A stretch of DNA of 29,422 nt from a virus, in IMG/VR virus record IMGVR_UViG_3300021083_000346, positions 1-29,422 of that record; one strand, written 5' to 3'. Positions 21,649-29,422 of the stretch are shown here, in pieces (the first letter of the stretch is position 1; the number at the start of each line of letters is the position of its first letter). The position numbers and the translations under genes are program-made. The notes below the pieces were generated by a model. That model had not been told where the DNA came from and made no database searches. It worked only from the letters and a program-made list of their open reading frames with translations.

Positions 21649-23255
21649 GGGTTAGATTCCTTCTCTTGGGTTGATTTACCTCTATTGCTTTGATTGACAG
21701 GCTGCTCAAGAGCGGCTTCAGCTTCTTGCTGGGCTTCTCTATCGCCTGGACCATCCGGCACAATCGCGGCAATGCCATTATAATCGGAATCAGGATCCGC
21801 CACAATGCGCTGCCTTGAATCTGTGCCGTCGATCGAGCCGCCTTGGATGAGAGCCATATCCCGTTGGGCTTTAAGCAGCTGGATTTCTGCTTGCTCTTTA
21901 TCTGTTGGCGTATCGGTCGGTTTCCAAGCTACCTCAGTTTCAAAAAATGGTATAGAGAATTTTTTCATCACCTCGGATTTAATTAGAAGCGCATGATGGC
22001 GATTGACCAGCGGAGACAAATCATTTTCTTGAATAGATTCAAGGAATTCATGATAAGAGCTTTCTTCATATTCGCCAGATGCCCCGAATCCTTTAGGTGA
22101 TGTGCCTAGCAATTTAGTTGCTGGAACTTCGGCGGCTGCAGCGACCAGCTGGTACTGTGTCATAATGACGGCGTCGAGGTCATTTAATGATGTGTCTTTT
22201 TGGTCGAGCTCTTCATTCTCGCCGATGATTTTTATGCCGAAGTTATTCATCAGCGCTGACCAGAATGTCATCTTCTCAATAAATTGCGGCCCATTGGCCT
22301 CCGCTTCGGTAATATCGGTTTTTAACGAAATTAAGCGCTTGGTCATTGCCAGCATTGGGGCTTCGTTCGCGGTGCGCTCTGCAGCAAATACGCGCTCGGC
22401 AATCTTTTGTGGTGTTGGAATGCCGCCATAAAAATATGTCGGCTTAAGTATGTCCGGCAGATCATCGCCATTGCGCCCGATAATCAAATGGGTGCGATGC
22501 ACGCGCTTGCCATTGATCCGCCACCATGTTGGCTCGTAAAAGTGTTTGCTGGCAGGGTTGGCGGCTGCGTTAGCGTCAAGCTCTGGCGTTATCCAGTATG
22601 GATCCACCTGGCTTATGCCGCGATAGCTACCCTCGACCACGCCATCAATATTAAATGGCAGTTCATAATATAGCGGATCCGTGGAATCAACCTCAAACAA
22701 GGCAATTCGGATGCCGAACTTACGCTCCATGGTTACAAATTCAGCGCAATTTTCTTTAAGCTTAAATGCTTTATCGCGCTTGCGTATATAATCCAAAACT
22801 GCTGGTTTGATTTCTGAGCCATCATTGATGGTGACATCATAGCCATGGCGGACAGCATCGCGTGCCGGCATAGCGCATGCTTTATTAATCAGCCAATTTT
22901 GCGATAATATTGCAGCGGTTTGATACCCGATAAAGGATTGATTCGCATACCATATCATCTGCGCCGGCGCTATATCCCCGCCATAGGAATTTTGGAGTTT
23001 GACCAGCTGCAAATCAGGATACGCCTCATCCATAACCGAGGTCGTGCCGTCATCATTTTGGATTATGGTTTTCTGGTGGGTGAAATCTTCTTTCTTTTTA
23101 CCGCGCTGGATGTTGCGGTCCAGAGATTCAACGACTTTTTGGCGCTCATGCTCCGTGAATCCGCGCCCTAAATCACTATGCGTGCTGAATATCCCACCAG
23201 CCCTTTTTTCAGGAATAACGGTAACGGCTTTAGTTTTTTTTCTGAATAGGGACAT
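21645..23255 (-). CDS. Portal protein, DUF1073 family
   Basis: A 536-aa portal protein. It has the DUF1073 features: YANQSFIGYQTAAILSQNWL, KACAMPARDAVRHGYDVT, FGIRIALFEVDSTDPLYYELPF-like segment, VPATKLLGTSPKGFGASGEYE and EESSYHEFLESIQENDLSP. The C-terminal 80 residues (EAQQEAEAALEQPVNQS and beyond) are acidic and Gln-rich. Twelve copies form the vertex through which DNA enters. It follows the large terminase by about 31 bases and is coupled to the next gene by ATGA. No fusion or truncation seen. Confidence 0.9.
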   Translation of the reverse strand: MSLFRKKTKAVTVIPEKRAGGIFSTHSDLGRGFTEHERQKVVESLDRNIQRGKKKEDFTHQKTIIQNDDGTTSVMDEAYPDLQLVKLQNSYGGDIAPAQMIWYANQSFIGYQTAAILSQNWLINKACAMPARDAVRHGYDVTINDGSEIKPAVLDYIRKRDKAFKLKENCAEFVTMERKFGIRIALFEVDSTDPLYYELPFNIDGVVEGSYRGISQVDPYWITPELDANAAANPASKHFYEPTWWRINGKRVHRTHLIIGRNGDDLPDILKPTYFYGGIPTPQKIAERVFAAERTANEAPMLAMTKRLISLKTDITEAEANGPQFIEKMTFWSALMNNFGIKIIGENEELDQKDTSLNDLDAVIMTQYQLVAAAAEVPATKLLGTSPKGFGASGEYEESSYHEFLESIQENDLSPLVNRHHALLIKSEVMKKFSIPFFETEVAWKPTDTPTDKEQAEIQLLKAQRDMALIQGGSIDGTDSRQRIVADPDSDYNGIAAIVPDGPGDREAQQEAEAALEQPVNQSNRGKSTQEKESNP

Positions 23256-23286: not shown

Positions 23287-24858
23287 TCAAGGCTTCCAGC
23301 TTGAGCTGAAAAAACCTAACGGCTTCGCGGCTATCATAGTCATAATGGCATCACATAGTGGGTCAATCTGGTCATCAAAGGCATGGCTGTCATCGGAAGT
23401 GAAAGCCTCGCACTCGTTGATAAATTCGCTATTAAACGGCATCCCATCCATCAGAACAACATGGCCGGATTCTATATGCCCGATGACATCCATGACGCGC
23501 GTCAACTTGTCCTTCTGGGCAAGAGCGCCGCGAACCATTGGCATAATCGGGATGGAATTGCTGCGCTTTATATCCTGAATCAAGCCAGTGCCGCTCGACT
23601 TATCTTCAACAAAGAATTTTCGCAACTCTCCCATCTCTTTCACGGCTTTATTTTTATTCCAGAAATCTATCGCTTGCCGTTTTAGCTCGGGCGCTTCCCA
23701 TTTGCCGCGAATAAGATCGAGCAAATATAGCTTGCCATCATCGCCTTTGCCCCAGCATTCAAAAACACTATAATCGTTGCGCTCGGCGGTTTTCTGAGCG
23801 GTATCGGCGAATATATTGCGATAGACTATTTTCGGTGCCACGCTGGCGCGTCCAAACCATTCACCTCTGATAATATTACCGCCCAGCGCTTTTGGATTCT
23901 GCATATATTGGGCAGCAAACACATATTTGCTAACTTTATTGCCCTCAGCATCCTCGCCATTGCCGCGCTCCATTTCAAGCATATCCTCGAGCGGTTCTTT
24001 ATATGGCCAATAAGAAAAACGCCCCTTATCATCCTGAGGTTGGCAAATAACCATCTCCTGAAGCTCGGGCGGCAGTGTTTTAACGTATTCCTCATCAATC
24101 AATGCGGGGATGGTGACAAACTCCCATTTGCCTGGGAAGTTTTTACCCTTGATAAAGGCTGTTGGATCCTTCTCGCCAATGCGCTGCATGATCAGGATAA
24201 CTGGCGTTGAGGGATTTGCCTTTCGCGATTTGACGGTGCTGATCAGCTGACGGTTGGCATTCTTAATGGCCGCGGCACTATAGGCTTCATCAGCCTTGAC
24301 CAAATCATCAAGGATTATTGCGCCCTGAAACCCTTCTGCCATATTGCCGGCGCGGAAGCCGGTGATCTGGCCGCCAAGAGATACCGCATAAACGCCGCCG
24401 GCCTTCTTGCCATCGATGAGCACGTTCCAACGCTTCTTAGCCTTGGCATCATTGGCGATGATCAGCGACCACATAGCTTGGTATTCATCGCTGCTTATGA
24501 TATCGCGGGCGCTCTGGGAATTGAGCAGCACAAGATCATCGCCGGAGCTAATATGCAGAAAGCGGGCCCGCGGGTTCAACGCGAGTCCACGCGCGATGAA
24601 ATTGATCACCGCCATTTCGGTTTTTGAGCTGCCAGGCGGCACGTTGATCACAAGATTCTGGCATTCGCCACGAATGACGCGCTCGAGCGCATGCGCGATA
24701 ATGATGTGATGCCAGTTAACAATGAATTTAATGTTCTGGCGATGCTTAAAGAAATAGCGAGTAAAAAATAAATGGCTGGCCTCGCAGCGCAGCTTTATTA
24801 TTTCCTTGCGCGCATCAGCCGGTTGAACTTTATGAGCAGCCTTGGCATTAGAATTCAT
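23287..24858 (-). CDS. terL: Terminase large subunit
   Basis: A 523-aa packaging motor. Walker A is VPPGSSKT (73-80), and Walker B is IILDDL (181-186) with the expected acidic pair. The coupling region contains [18 protein letters not shown]. The RNase H-like nuclease has D352 (NIFADTAQ), E418-D419 ([11 protein letters not shown]) and D496-D497 (HAFDDQIDP), so all catalytic acids are present. It cuts concatemeric DNA and pumps it through the DUF1073 portal encoded next. The start overlaps terS by 11 bases. Length is normal for the family. Confidence 0.9.
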
Positions 24859-25270
24859 TCTCGATTTTTTCTAATTCTTGCCTGATAAAGTCGGGCGTTA
24901 AATTGACATTTTGGACATTGGCGGGAAGCGGATTCTCGGGGTCGCTGCCCATCAATGTAGTCTTTGTCCAGCCAGCACGCCGCTCGAGGAAGAATGTTAT
25001 CGCCGGCACGTTCATGAGGTTGATTGCTTGCAATAACTTGGCTGCGACAGCCGCTATTCCTGTGGCCAGCCCCTTCATCATAGCCGCCTCGAATCTAGGG
25101 TCGTCTATCTGTCTGCGATATAACGTTACTGGCGACATGCCAATGCAGCGCGCAACCTCATCTTTGGTCAGCCCGCGAGCGGCATAAGCCTCGACCTTGT
25201 CGTAATCAATTACGAGCTTTGGTCTTCCTGGCTTTCGTTTCGGTTTTACCTTCTGTGTTTTCTTTGCCAT
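24848..25270 (-). CDS. terS: Terminase small subunit-like DNA-binding protein
   Basis: A 140-aa protein from ATG 25270 ([19 protein letters not shown]); the longer open frame is rejected because the upstream part lies in the methyltransferase gene. A basic AT-hook-like KRKPGRPK stretch is followed by a helix-turn-helix ([23 protein letters not shown]) that resembles small terminase DNA-binding domains. The C-terminus ([17 protein letters not shown]) may contact the large subunit. It overlaps the methyltransferase by 65 bases and the large subunit by 11. Confidence 0.8.
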
Positions 25271-26468
25271 TTTCCAGTACCGCTTTCTTGCCTGTAAAGT
25301 TTTCCCAGCGCTTGACCGCGACGTCAACATAAGCAGGGCTGATTTCCATAGCATAGCATATCCGGCCTAGCATTTCAGCCGCTATAATGGTCGTGCCGGA
25401 TCCGCTGAATGGTTCAAAAATCAACTGGCCAGGTGACGACGATATCATCATCATGTTTTGGATTAGCTTGATCGGCTTTATAGTTGGATGACCATCTTCT
25501 TTCTCGCGCGCATATTCTAAGCATTTAGAATAGTTGGCATCTTTGACTGCATTATTCCATTTTGCAGATTTGCGAAAAAATAAAATATATTCAACATCTG
25601 GTCGATGCTGCCCTCCCAAGGGAATGGCATTCGGTTTCTTCCAAAATAAAATATTGAAATTGTAACCAGCCTCTACAGCCCATTTGAGATAATTAGGCAC
25701 TAAGTCTTTGTTGCAAAATACATAAGAATTCATAATGCCTTTATCAAAAATAGTGGGCAGCATGGCAAGAAATTGTTCAGGTTCAAAATCACATAAGTGT
25801 TTAATCGCTTCGCCCAGCTTCGCGGCAGCGCGGCCTATCGGTTGTTTACTCCCACCCTCTGCAGCCATATTATATGGCGGGTCTGTTATGCAAAGCTGGG
25901 CTATACCTCCATTTAATAATAAATCTAGTTGAGTTTGCGAAGAACTATCGCCACACATAAGTCGATGCCCCCCTATCTGCCATATATCGCCCGTTTTCGT
26001 AATTGGCTCTTCCGGTAATTCCGGTACCGCATCTGGATCCGTAAGCCCCTCTGTGCCGCCAGCATCAAGCAGCTTTGCTATTTCGTCCTCATCAAATCCC
26101 GTTAGCTCGAGATTATAGCCATCATCCATGAGCGCTTGCATCTCAAGCTTAAGCATATCGGCATCCCATCCAGCGGATAGCGCAAGCCGATTATCAGCCA
26201 GCACAAGGGCTTTGCGCTGAATTTCCGTCAAGCCGCTGATGACCATACACGGCACTTCTTTGAGCCGCAGCTTTCTCGCCGCGAGGACGCGCCCATGGCC
26301 GGCGATTAAAACATTATCATCGCCGATTAACACGGGATTTGTGAAGCCGAATTCTTGTATTGAAGCGGCTATCTGGGCAATCTGCGCTTCGGAATGGGTG
26401 CGGGAATTATTAACATACGGCACGAGCTCATCGAGCTTTTTAGACTTAAATTTAATAGGTGAAGCCAT
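25206..26468 (-). CDS. ParB-domain DNA methyltransferase (beta-class)
   Basis: A 420-aa protein from ATG 26468; an upstream ATG at 26501 is less likely because AAGGAG lies six bases from the 26468 start. Residues 5-95 are a ParB/Srx-like domain (ELVPYVNNSRTHSEAQI, IAGHGRVLAARKL, ALVLADNRLALSAGWD). Residues 160-395 are an amino-methyltransferase: catalytic DPPY at 196-199 comes before the SAM-binding FEPFSGSGTT at 351-360, the order of the beta class. It methylates adenine N6 or cytosine N4 in a target that cannot be read from sequence. The C-terminus is basic and repetitive. No restriction endonuclease is visible, so self-protection of phage DNA or regulation of packaging is likelier than restriction. 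Confidence 0.9.
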   Translation of the reverse strand: MASPIKFKSKKLDELVPYVNNSRTHSEAQIAQIAASIQEFGFTNPVLIGDDNVLIAGHGRVLAARKLRLKEVPCMVISGLTEIQRKALVLADNRLALSAGWDADMLKLEMQALMDDGYNLELTGFDEDEIAKLLDAGGTEGLTDPDAVPELPEEPITKTGDIWQIGGHRLMCGDSSSQTQLDLLLNGGIAQLCITDPPYNMAAEGGSKQPIGRAAAKLGEAIKHLCDFEPEQFLAMLPTIFDKGIMNSYVFCNKDLVPNYLKWAVEAGYNFNILFWKKPNAIPLGGQHRPDVEYILFFRKSAKWNNAVKDANYSKCLEYAREKEDGHPTIKPIKLIQNMMMISSSPGQLIFEPFSGSGTTIIAAEMLGRICYAMEISPAYVDVAVKRWENFTGKKAVLENGKENTEGKTETKARKTKARN

Positions 26469-26517
26469 GGGTTCTCCTTGAAGATATATCAAAACTATCA
26501 ATATTCCTCAAAATAAC

Positions 26518-26544
26518 ACTATAGCAATTAAAATGCTATTGCTA
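26518..26544 (-). promoter_or_regulatory. Candidate late-operon promoter with TAGCAAT/ATTGCTA operator
   Basis: Read on the minus strand, TTTAGC is followed after 17 bases by TGC-TATAGT, an extended -10 (TATAGT at 26523-26518). The 7-bp arms TAGCAAT (26522-26528) and ATTGCTA (26538-26544) form an inverted repeat that covers both promoter elements. The predicted start is near 26511, about 43 bases before the methyltransferase ATG. A related arrangement stands before the plus-strand gene at 29221. Confidence 0.45.
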
Positions 26545-26547
26545 AAA

Positions 26548-26761
26548 CTCAGTCAGTCTCAGTCAGTCTCAGTCAGTGACAACATATTGATATTTAATAA
26601 AATGACCGAGATGACTGAGTATTTAGCTAAAAGAGTCTAAAAATCCCCAAAACACAAAAAACGGCACAATGTCCTGTTTTGGGTAATATAGGAAGTTCCG
26701 GTCAGTCTCAGTCAGTGCGTATATAATATTAATATAAAATAAAAACTTAAGGCTGACTGAG
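26548..26761. repeat. CTCAGTCA box cluster, origin or operator candidate
   Basis: Three perfect tandem copies of CTCAGTCAGT (26548-26577), one separate copy (26707-26716) and two inverted TGACTGAG copies (26612-26619, 26754-26761) lie in the gap between primase and methyltransferase. AT-rich stretches lie between the boxes (26585-26600, 26720-26745). Iteron-like boxes plus AT-rich DNA beside a primase gene suggest a replication origin; a regulator-binding array is the alternative. Confidence 0.5.
26639..26683 (-). terminator. Candidate intrinsic terminator
   Basis: On the minus strand CCCAAAACA pairs perfectly with TGTTTTGGG (9 bp, 20-nt loop; arms 26675-26683 and 26646-26654), followed by GATTTTTAG. 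The stem is A-T rich and the loop long, so strength is uncertain. It would stop transcripts from the primase before the late promoter. Confidence 0.35.
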
Positions 26762-26769
26762 TCGCCTTA
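26741..26769 (-). terminator. Candidate intrinsic terminator after primase
   Basis: On the minus strand TAAGGC pairs with GCCTTA, with further inner pairing across GACT/AGTC, followed by AAGTTTTTATTTT. It lies about 40 bases after the primase stop. It also contains one CTCAGTCA box, so the arms may serve double duty. Confidence 0.4.
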
Positions 26770-26808
26770 TTTCACATATTAAAAATGTATAATAGAAAAA
26801 TGGGGAAA

Positions 26809-28932
26809 TTAGAAATCCAGCGGCGTACTATTATTGACGCCATTATAAATATATTTGCCAATATTGAACAGGCGGCTGCCAAATCGGTCACGGCGCATAG
26901 GAACGCCACGAGCGCGGAGATAGTTGGCGATGATACGGGTTTCGCGCTGGCTAATGTTTTTAAGGCCTATGCCTTCGGCTATCTGGGTTGATGTATTCCA
27001 TTCGGTGGAGCGCCTGTTGTCGATATCGTATTTGGCATTTATCATTTCATGTAGCGGCTCGATTTGCTGATGCTCTTTATTGATACGCGCAACATGGGCG
27101 CTTTCATCCGGTAACAGCTTCCAGTTTTCGCTATGGGTTTCAATAAGGTCTAAAACTTCCGCCCAAAGCTGCTGCATATCGATATCGTGATAGCTGTCGA
27201 TAGCCGTACATGGGATTGTCCAGAAGCGGCGATTACCAGCTGTATCCTGTAAATAAAAATCTTGATCAACGCTGGCAATGAGTCCGGTTCGGCGGGGATA
27301 TTTCTTGTCGCCAACACCATACGGTCGGCGCATAGTGTCGTGGTCACGGGTAATAAAGGTTTTTACAGCTTGTAAATCCGCGCGGTTAAATGTGGCGCCA
27401 ATTTCGCCGAGTTCGCATATCCAATAGCTGATGACCTGGCTTACGGTATCTTTATCCTTCGGATCCACCATGGCATCGGTGCGTATAAGTTCCGATCTGA
27501 TATTCTTGGGCAAAAGCTTTTTGACCCACCATGTTTTGCCTAAATTCTGTGGCCCCTGCAGCACAAGGCATCCGGCGGAGTCAATGCCATTATATAGCGC
27601 CATGCACATTGCTGTGATGAGCCAGCGGCGGATTAAAAGTTCTTTTGCTTCATGCTCTGGGCTAGTGATGGTGTCATAAAATTCCGGCAAGCGGCTGACC
27701 TTATCCCATGGGCGGCTGCGAACCCAATTCAGGACGGGATTGTATTGGTTTTCATCGGCAATACGCATGAGATACATAGTGTGGCCATCAGTCGGCAACT
27801 TCCATTCCTTCATATAGCTGTAAATGACAGCCAGTGCGGATTCTTCGGCATTTTCGATGCTGAATACTTCGTTCGGTATCACATGCTCAACGCGCTTCGA
27901 AATTACATTGTATCGGCACTGGATATTATAATAACTTAGCAAATCCCGCATGTTTTGCAGCGTGGCCAGTGCGCGGTTATTGTTTACCGGATCCATGTGC
28001 GTCAACAACAGGGCTATGCGCTCGGCACTGATTTGCGGCTGGGTATTTTTTACCTGAAGTTCATTATCTTTGCCTTCTTGTAAAAATTGCTCGGTTGGGA
28101 AATTATCGGGCGCATCGCCCAAGTCCCAGCCTTCCTCGACGCCATCCGGCAGCTTGACGATATGCAAATCTGGCAGCATCTTTTTAATTCCGGTTGCCGC
28201 GATATTCCCAGGCTGGTCGGCATCCGGCCATATCCATGTATAGCGGCTCTTGAGCGGCGTCCAATCGGTTCCCTTAATGGCTTCAGCGCCACCGCACCAG
28301 CCAACAACAACCCAATCCGGCAAGAGCAGCTGAGCCCGTTCTGCTTTCTTTTCACCCTCGACAATGAGCACCTTGGCATCTGGACGCGCGAGGAGAGCGG
28401 GGAGTCTGTAGATTGGCGAAGCGCATGGCCATTTCTTCCATTTCCATATACATGTACCATCACCGCGCTTCCAGAATGTGCGGGGAATGAATTGCTTTTT
28501 CTCATTTGGATTCGGTGGAGGGAAGCGGCATATATAGCCAACGATTTTCCCATCCATACCGCGATATTCATAGACCGCTTCCGGCTTGCCAAATTTGGAA
28601 TGGGCTGGGATTGGCGGGGATTCAACGCCGCCGAGATAAGTATCCTCCGCCAGAGTGTCTTTTGAGGTGCTGAAATGCTTGGCGGCTTCGGATTGCTTTA
28701 CGTCATGGATGGCAGCATATAGGCTGATTAGGTCAGCTGAGCCTTTGCCGCTGGCAAAATCGCGCCATATTCCGGTGTCTATATTGATGCTCAAGGAATG
28801 GCCAGCTTCGCCTTGTAAACTGCCAACCACGAATTCTCTCCCCTTTAATTTTCCCTGCGGAAACCACTCGCTTAAATAGCGCGGCGCATCAGCCAATAGG
28901 CGGTCAGCAATTGCCTTGAAGTTTATCGCCAT
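26809..28932 (-). CDS. Primase-helicase with TOPRIM and VirE-type P-loop domains
   Basis: A 707-aa replication protein. Residues 20-90 form a primase-like N-terminal part (GIWRDFASGKGSADLISLYAA). Residues 185-275 are TOPRIM-like (VLIVEGEKKAERA with E192, WPDADQPG with D237/D239). Residues 400-640 are a VirE/SF3-like ATPase: Walker A GPQNLGKT at 460-467, then ELGEIGATFNRADLQAVKTFI, RRPYGVGDKKYPRRTGLIAS and DTAGNRRFWTIP. The enzyme would prime and unwind phage DNA. The start has AGGG about nine bases upstream. It is separated from the late operon by a repeat-rich gap and transcribed in the same direction. Confidence 0.85.
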   Translation of the reverse strand: MAINFKAIADRLLADAPRYLSEWFPQGKLKGREFVVGSLQGEAGHSLSINIDTGIWRDFASGKGSADLISLYAAIHDVKQSEAAKHFSTSKDTLAEDTYLGGVESPPIPAHSKFGKPEAVYEYRGMDGKIVGYICRFPPPNPNEKKQFIPRTFWKRGDGTCIWKWKKWPCASPIYRLPALLARPDAKVLIVEGEKKAERAQLLLPDWVVVGWCGGAEAIKGTDWTPLKSRYTWIWPDADQPGNIAATGIKKMLPDLHIVKLPDGVEEGWDLGDAPDNFPTEQFLQEGKDNELQVKNTQPQISAERIALLLTHMDPVNNNRALATLQNMRDLLSYYNIQCRYNVISKRVEHVIPNEVFSIENAEESALAVIYSYMKEWKLPTDGHTMYLMRIADENQYNPVLNWVRSRPWDKVSRLPEFYDTITSPEHEAKELLIRRWLITAMCMALYNGIDSAGCLVLQGPQNLGKTWWVKKLLPKNIRSELIRTDAMVDPKDKDTVSQVISYWICELGEIGATFNRADLQAVKTFITRDHDTMRRPYGVGDKKYPRRTGLIASVDQDFYLQDTAGNRRFWTIPCTAIDSYHDIDMQQLWAEVLDLIETHSENWKLLPDESAHVARINKEHQQIEPLHEMINAKYDIDNRRSTEWNTSTQIAEGIGLKNISQRETRIIANYLRARGVPMRRDRFGSRLFNIGKYIYNGVNNSTPLDF

Positions 28933-28959
28933 GCAATAATCCCTGTTCTTGGTGGTCGA

Positions 28960-29004
28960 CGCAACGGGAAACGGGCGTTAAGGCGCTCGCTTTATACCGT
29001 TGCG
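28960..29004. promoter_or_regulatory. Inverted repeat in primase leader
   Basis: CGCAACGG (28960-28967) and CCGTTGCG (28997-29004) form a perfect 8-bp inverted repeat 28-72 bases upstream of the primase ATG, enclosing GC-rich sequence. It is transcribed if the promoter lies farther upstream, so it may be a leader hairpin. Its function is unknown. Confidence 0.3.
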
Positions 29005-29143
29005 CCTCCCGTAATTATAGATAAATCAAGCGAAATATAGGGGAAAATCATAAAAAGCTATCCTTAACTAGCTATATCAGCTTTATAAGTTCTTTATATC
29101 TTTGGCAAGCAAAAAGATTGCTAAAATATATTCAAAATAGCTG
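29005..29143. other. AT-rich divergent intergenic region, no gene seen
   Basis: Together with the leader this makes a 288-base gap between the divergent primase and Cys-rich genes. It is AT-rich, contains an extra ATTGCTA copy (29117-29123) and several AGCTAT words, and shows no convincing ORF, tRNA or clear minus-strand -35/-10 pair. The primase promoter should lie here. Confidence 0.4.
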
Positions 29144-29171
29144 TTGCAATTAGCAATTAGATTGCTATTGT
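29144..29171 (+). promoter_or_regulatory. Candidate promoter with perfect TAGCAAT-TAG-ATTGCTA operator
   Basis: TTGCAA (29144-29149) and TGC-TATTGT (-10 at 29166-29171) are separated by 16 bases. The spacer and -10 are covered by a perfect 17-bp palindrome, TAGCAATTAGATTGCTA (29151-29167). The predicted start near 29178 leaves a leader of about 43 bases with AAGGAAA before the ATG at 29221. The box sequence is shared with 26522-26544, suggesting one regulator for both promoters. Confidence 0.5.
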
Positions 29172-29220
29172 GGATTCACAAAATATTTATTTTTATAACT
29201 ACAAAGCAAAGGAAATAATA

Positions 29221-29422
29221 ATGTTGAAATGGATCAAAGACGAAAATGGAATCGAATGGGCTATTGACGACAAAGGAAACAAATGCAGTGAAAGTTATTT
29301 CGGCACAAAAGAGCTTGCAGAAAAAGCTTTAAAAAGTTTAAAAAACTGTGAAAATTGTATCAATTGCTCGCATTGCTCGCATTGCTCGCGTTGCTCGGGT
29401 TGCTCGGATTGCTCGGATTGCT
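29221..29422 (+). CDS. Cys-x-x triplet repeat protein, 3' end outside window
   Basis: The only plus-strand gene, with AAGGAAA seven bases before ATG; 67 residues are visible. Residues 1-42 form a soluble charged segment (MLKWIKDENGIEWAIDDKG, YFGTKELAEKALKSLK) that resembles a small sheet plus helix. From C43 every third residue is Cys (43, 46, 49 ... 67), first as CENCIN, then CSH, CSH, CSR, CSG, CSD, CSD. No signal peptide or membrane segment. I do not recognise a named domain. The spacing could give a Cys-lined beta-solenoid or a multi-metal cluster; both are speculation. It is transcribed away from the virion operon under a probable repressor site, so an early or accessory role is plausible. 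Confidence 0.7.
   Translation, partial: MLKWIKDENGIEWAIDDKGNKCSESYFGTKELAEKALKSLKNCENCINCSHCSHCSRCSGCSDCSDC
29365..29422 (+). repeat. 9-bp tandem coding repeat
   Basis: Six consecutive copies of TGCTCGNNT (CAT, CAT, CGT, GGT, GAT, GAT at the variable codon) and the start of a seventh run to the window edge. Each copy encodes Cys-Ser-x. The first two codons are invariant while the third varies, consistent with recent expansion by slippage or recombination and change at one exposed position. Confidence 0.85.

Follow-up and report, generated by a model that had tools for sequence, protein, structure and literature searches.

A shared operator-like 17-bp dyad over two promoter-like sequences flanking the primase-helicase gene of an uncultured contractile-tailed phage

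In phage lambda, CI and Cro bind the OL and OR operators, 17-bp dyads that overlap early promoters. The two operator regions are separated by about 2.4 kb and lie on either side of cI–rex; each has more than one site, and the sites cover promoter elements. The C1 operators of phage P1 and the stoperators of mycobacteriophage L5 place sites for one repressor at several separate transcription units, and these sites are asymmetric and occur many times per genome. Next to a VapE/D5-type primase-helicase gene, origins of the P4 type carry short repeats, both direct and inverted.

Here we describe a locus in a virus record of 29,422 bases (the whole of which we call the window) that resembles each of these in part. 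As in lambda, the same 17-bp dyad is found at two promoters, here promoter-like sequences, in a fixed register over promoter elements (relative to predicted starts), with more than one site per region and a comparable spacing: the centres of lambda OL1 and OR1 are 2407 bp apart, versus 2629 bp between OL and O1 in the window. Unlike lambda, the sequence of the dyad is different, the two regions flank a primase gene, no repressor gene was seen in the window, and the left promoter leads directly into terminase and virion genes, whereas the CI operators of lambda lie over early promoters. The presence of sites at separate transcription units recalls P1 and L5, but the 29.4 kb of the window contain just three dyads, all within two intergenic regions, and one stray genic copy, and the many genome-wide sites of those phages have no counterpart within it (4 sites with ≤2 mismatches). 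The likeness to P4-type origins, judged from sequence alone, covers a set of decamer repeats rather than the dyads, and the repeat sequence differs. The shared operator-like site is real and well formed; its sequence and setting are new, and the type of control is already known.

The minus strand carries one long gene run, encoding a ParB-like methyltransferase, terminase subunits, portal, head, sheath, tape measure, baseplate and fibre. Upstream of this run is a VapE-type primase-helicase gene (26809–28932, minus strand), beyond which a divergent Cys-rich gene starts at 29221; the contig ends 0.2 kb into that gene, inside 9-bp repeats. The sites fall in the two intergenic regions so defined, 26469–26808 (340 bases) and 28933–29220 (288 bases), and the relevant features are as follows.

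23287–24858, minus strand: terminase large subunit gene of the left operon (protein scans)
25206–26468, minus strand: ParB-like/N6-N4 methyltransferase gene, the first of the left operon (protein scans)
26518–26545, minus strand: predicted left promoter, TTAGCA - 16 - TATAGT with TG, 9/12 (promoter scan)
26522–26538, unstranded: OL, a 17-bp dyad with a single mismatch in its arms, which covers the −10 and spacer of the left promoter (17-mer scan)
26538–26544, unstranded: additional half-site, ATTGCTA, which overlaps the left promoter on its −35 side (17-mer scan)
26548–26577, unstranded: three copies in tandem of the decamer CTCAGTCAGT, directly adjoining the left −35 (repeat scans)
26809–28932, minus strand: VapE-type primase-helicase gene, between the two operator regions (protein scans)
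29107–29123, unstranded: O2, a dyad with two arm mismatches (17-mer scan; 29/5000 shuffles)
29144–29171, plus strand: right promoter, predicted from the sequence, TTGCAA - 16 - TATTGT with extended −10 TGC, 8/12
29151–29167, unstranded: O1, TAGCAAT-TAG-ATTGCTA, a 17-bp dyad without mismatches, which covers the −10 and spacer of the right promoter (sequence)
29221–29422, plus strand: Cys-rich CSxCS-repeat gene, with the CSxCS repeats at 29363–29422, incomplete at the contig end (phrog_15341, E 4.7e-7)

The arms of O1 are 7 bp long and free of mismatches around a 3-bp centre, and OL shares this centre and 15 of the 17 letters. An earlier note on this DNA had reported a perfect palindrome at 29151–29167 and a second site at 26522–26544, and both were found as stated. 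It had read the left site as a variant with a 9-bp spacer, which is better described as the 17-mer at 26522–26538 with its 3-bp centre, followed by the half-site at 26538–26544; the ‘extra single arm’ it placed at 29117–29123 is present, but is half of a third full site, O2, whose centre lies 44 bp upstream of that of O1. Exact TAGCAAT...ATTGCTA pairs with spacers of 0–12 occur in the 29,422-base window only at 29151–29167 and 26522–26544. Of the four sites with ≤2 mismatches three are in the two intergenic regions, the other being a stray with two mismatches at 22107, inside the portal gene (17-mer scan).

Both sites coincide, as described before, with extended −10 elements, TGC-TATTGT at 29166–29171 on the plus strand and TGC-TATAGT at 26523–26518 on the minus strand, and the leaders up to ATG 29221 and ATG 26468 are, again as described, about 43 nt long. 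With starts placed 7 bases after the −10, near 29178 on the plus strand and 26511 on the minus strand, O1 and OL each span about −27 to −11 of the promoter-like sequences and leave leaders of 43 bases, and O2 spans −71 to −55 of the right promoter. Since the dyads have this span, binding at O1 and OL should block RNA polymerase. An alignment on the −10 gives 18 identities between the two promoters over the 22 positions that run from the dyad through TATWGTG, and half of this similarity could come from promoter sequence alone, because the ATTGCTA arm partly coincides with the extended −10. The left promoter scores 9/12 with TG, in a region whose shuffles average 1.7 such sites; the right promoter is absent from the promoter-scan output, its 8/12 being a manual count over the two hexamers. 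A second small dyad, TTGTG-GATT-CACAA (29169–29182), directly follows O1 and reaches over the last part of the right −10 and the predicted start.

How far chance could produce this arrangement depends on the question asked, and all shuffle figures are optimistic because the motif was picked after the sequence had been inspected. Exact TAGCAAT...ATTGCTA pairs average 0.02 in shuffles of the window, and two copies appeared in 0/100. Some same-arm pair of perfect 7-bp inverted repeats arises anywhere in the window in 49/300 shuffles, so that a bare pair is unremarkable at that scale; an inverted-repeat arm common to both intergenic regions was obtained in 2/3000. Plain similarity between the two regions is weakly unusual, the best 22-mer (18/22) being reached in 20/1000 shuffles and the best 17-mer (15/17) in 47/1000. 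A joint score for identity and dyad symmetry is 28 here and was reached in 0/1000 shuffles; the known lambda OL/OR pair scores 24 (2/1000), and the P22 OL/OR pair went undetected (315/1000), so the test misses even-centred operators. Finally, an additional site with ≤2 mismatches turned up in the remainder of the right intergenic region, beside O1, in 29/5000 shuffles.

The dyad comparison was extended to 10 other records (seven terminase kin, Mica, Bphi-R1888 and ctOK67), with genes called by a crude ORF rule and Bphi-R1888, ctOK67 and one of the terminase kin compared in part. The window shows the shared dyad, nine of the 10 records show none and the tenth an A/T run. As these other phages gave only that one A/T run, the shared dyad in the window is not background. 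A comparable dyad was thus found in 0/10 records by a method that misses some true operators; since P22 was among those missed, the null result in kin does not show that they lack shared operators.

The searches gave no close relative. Burkholderia phage BgManors32 has a terminase 62% identical to the one in the window, and Burkholderia phage Mica a primase 33% identical; a terminase search returned 34 viral loci, the best at 75% on a 4.4-kb contig, and five genome loci, two of them at 60–63%. In viral_contigs, from which records very near the window may be omitted, the primase search gave no close relative, an exact tandem pair of decamers occurred 0 times, and no relative with the same operator pair was found. 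Homologues of the Cys-rich gene lacked the dyad in the 180 bases upstream at all 39 loci examined of the 63 found. The literature searched, most subscription journals lying outside it, held nothing on the operator or the CSxCS protein.

The pattern TAGCAATNNNATTGCTA matches at least 120 stretches in viral_contigs, and a stricter operator–promoter pattern matches 34 records, 29 of them inside open frames of ≥100 codons, mostly in unrelated genes; the matches outside such frames are in L018, L229, L230, L238 and L242. When six window proteins were compared by tblastn with the 149 loci from both patterns, four loci matched (L065, L101, L105 and L122). One of these, L105 (1952–1968, in record G011), has the identical 17-mer and centre, with a methyltransferase gene on one side and a small gene on the other. 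This copy lies downstream of a VapE gene and adjoins two inverted DnaA-box-like sequences, and two further 2-mismatch sites occur in 41 kb. G011 is the most tempting of the four matches, but its VapE is 24% identical, no clear promoter accompanies its site, and nothing in the window corresponds to its DnaA-box-like neighbours. The 17-mer there is probably a chance match. The right operator with its −10 also recurs letter for letter (21/21) on an unrelated viral contig (L230, 1235–1255), where it precedes a gene that resembles ribonucleotide reductase by its translation.

Taking these results together, we consider it rather probable, going by the sequence, that the three 17-bp sites are operators of one dimeric HTH repressor which silences the Cys-rich transcript and the methyltransferase–terminase–virion transcript together. 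The repressor would most likely be encoded by the phage itself, past the right end of the contig. At O1 and OL it would cover about −27 to −11 and exclude RNA polymerase from both extended −10 elements, so that the rightward Cys-rich transcript and the operon would be silenced jointly, in an off state of the prophage or superinfection type; O2, 44 bp upstream, may give cooperative binding or touch a divergent primase promoter. The shared dyad, its 3-bp centre, the same offset from the −10 and the third site near O1 all speak for a single repressor, as do the shuffle figures for the two intergenic regions and the joint score, and the small HTH proteins of kin records and Mica described below. 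Counting against it are the lack of a regulator gene among the window proteins scanned, the failure to find the operator in kin, the matches to the operator–promoter pattern that fall mostly in unrelated genes, the overlap of the ATTGCTA arm with the extended −10, the stray site in the portal gene and the weakness of the right promoter (8/12).

That one regulator acts at both promoters, as the earlier note proposed, is the best-supported inference and likely right, given the same dyad in the same −10 register and the clustering of sites. Its suggestion of a temporal switch finds no support, since two promoters that carry one operator at the same place should be controlled simultaneously. With O1 and OL alike in register and sequence, both units are predicted to switch off and on together, and such joint switching favours a common off state, e.g. 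lysogeny, over a temporal relay. A lysogeny switch, the other form that had been suggested, may exist, but the window shows neither an integrase nor a repressor, and PF00717 (S24 peptidase) and PF00589 (tyrosine integrase) were each found in 0/10 kin records, which are possibly fragments.

A source for the regulator outside the window, also proposed earlier, is consistent with gene content: among the window proteins scanned (some small ORFs being left out), there was no DNA-binding regulator beyond the primase-helicase, the ParB-methyltransferase and a weak HTH match, which falls in the terminase small subunit (E 0.015 or worse). Small HTH regulators are usual in this phage group, as seen from a small HTH_3 protein in seven of 10 kin records (possibly fragments), two annotated HTH genes immediately before the primase-helicase gene of Mica, and the gene order in two of those 10 records: in G001 (L263, 1396–3185), a terminase relative, an HTH_3 regulator gene lies directly upstream of a primase-like gene, and G003 has divergent HTH-like genes, judged from their translations.

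Regulators of the MarR and TetR families often bind odd-centred dyads of about 17 bp. A host protein of such a kind, tying both phage promoters to the state of the host, would suit the size and position of the dyad and the lack of a regulator gene among the scanned window proteins; we consider it unlikely, as two phage promoters with one private operator are more simply a phage system. We give still less credence to a phage early protein that uses the dyads as activator or dual-regulator sites and switches the right and left transcripts in sequence. O2 does sit at about −63 of the right promoter, where activators can sit, and the decamers abut the left −35, but O1 and OL lie over the −10 in the same register, which fits blocking and predicts equal timing.

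Coincidence, in which two promoter-like sequences happen to share an AT-rich inverted repeat with some help from the extended −10, seems to us just as improbable as that activator. The frequency of same-arm pairs across the whole window (49/300), the shuffles that reach the best 22-mer and 17-mer identities (20 and 47 of 1000), the selection of the motif after inspection and the single occurrence of the same 21-mer in an unrelated phage (L230) would all accord with it; the figures for the two intergenic regions (2/3000) and for the joint dyad score (0/1000), and the third site, argue otherwise. Most improbable of all is that dyads and decamers are parts of a replication origin flanking the primase-helicase gene and not transcriptional operators: the stretch from the primase 3′ end to the methyltransferase gene has iteron-like decamers of both orientations, and the identical dyad of G011, a phage with VapE and methyltransferase genes, lies beside two DnaA-box-like sequences, yet neither intergenic region of the window has a DnaA box with ≤1 mismatch, and the dyads overlap −10 elements, with one register for both promoters. 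We also rejected an RNA hairpin or terminator, since the dyads precede the predicted starts and the scans detected nothing like a terminator; as RNA the dyads fold modestly (z −2.5, −1.2 and −2.3). A one-arm resemblance to the P1 C1 operator was dropped since the window sites are symmetric. The window dyads presumably match no LexA box of a known type.

Under a single repressor, the left promoter may still have a second input. The three decamers end 2 bases from its −35 and are spaced about one helical turn apart, in the AT-rich gap between the primase-helicase and methyltransferase genes; a further copy lies at 26707, partial copies in the opposite orientation lie at 26612 and 26753, and the right promoter is without such decamers. 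As in iteron-type origins, they are repeated short sites beside a primase-helicase gene. Their position points to such an input or to a replication origin: an activator bound to them could make the left promoter late, or they could be the iterons of an origin beside the primase gene. One might go further and imagine one repressor that directly keeps the Cys-rich gene and the entire operon silent and loops between the two operator regions on either side of the primase-helicase gene and an iteron-type origin, with a decamer-bound activator licensing the left promoter only after replication starts. We think this elaboration quite unlikely; if true, one 2.6-kb unit would couple prophage silence, replication and late expression.

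Should control by one repressor be borne out, it would show how gene control is wired in an uncultured phage with a contractile tail, and offer a concrete operator with which to find the repressor once the remaining genome is known. The wiring would be somewhat unusual, in that the virion operon's own promoter, not an early activator, would be repressed directly, and a widespread CSxCS-repeat phage gene of unknown function would fall under repressor control. That gene is kin to phrog_15341, itself of unknown function, and has relatives in 63 viral loci. Several contigs with such relatives likewise stop inside the repeats, their frames marked open, and the CSxCS repeats therefore seem to be a regular assembly break point.
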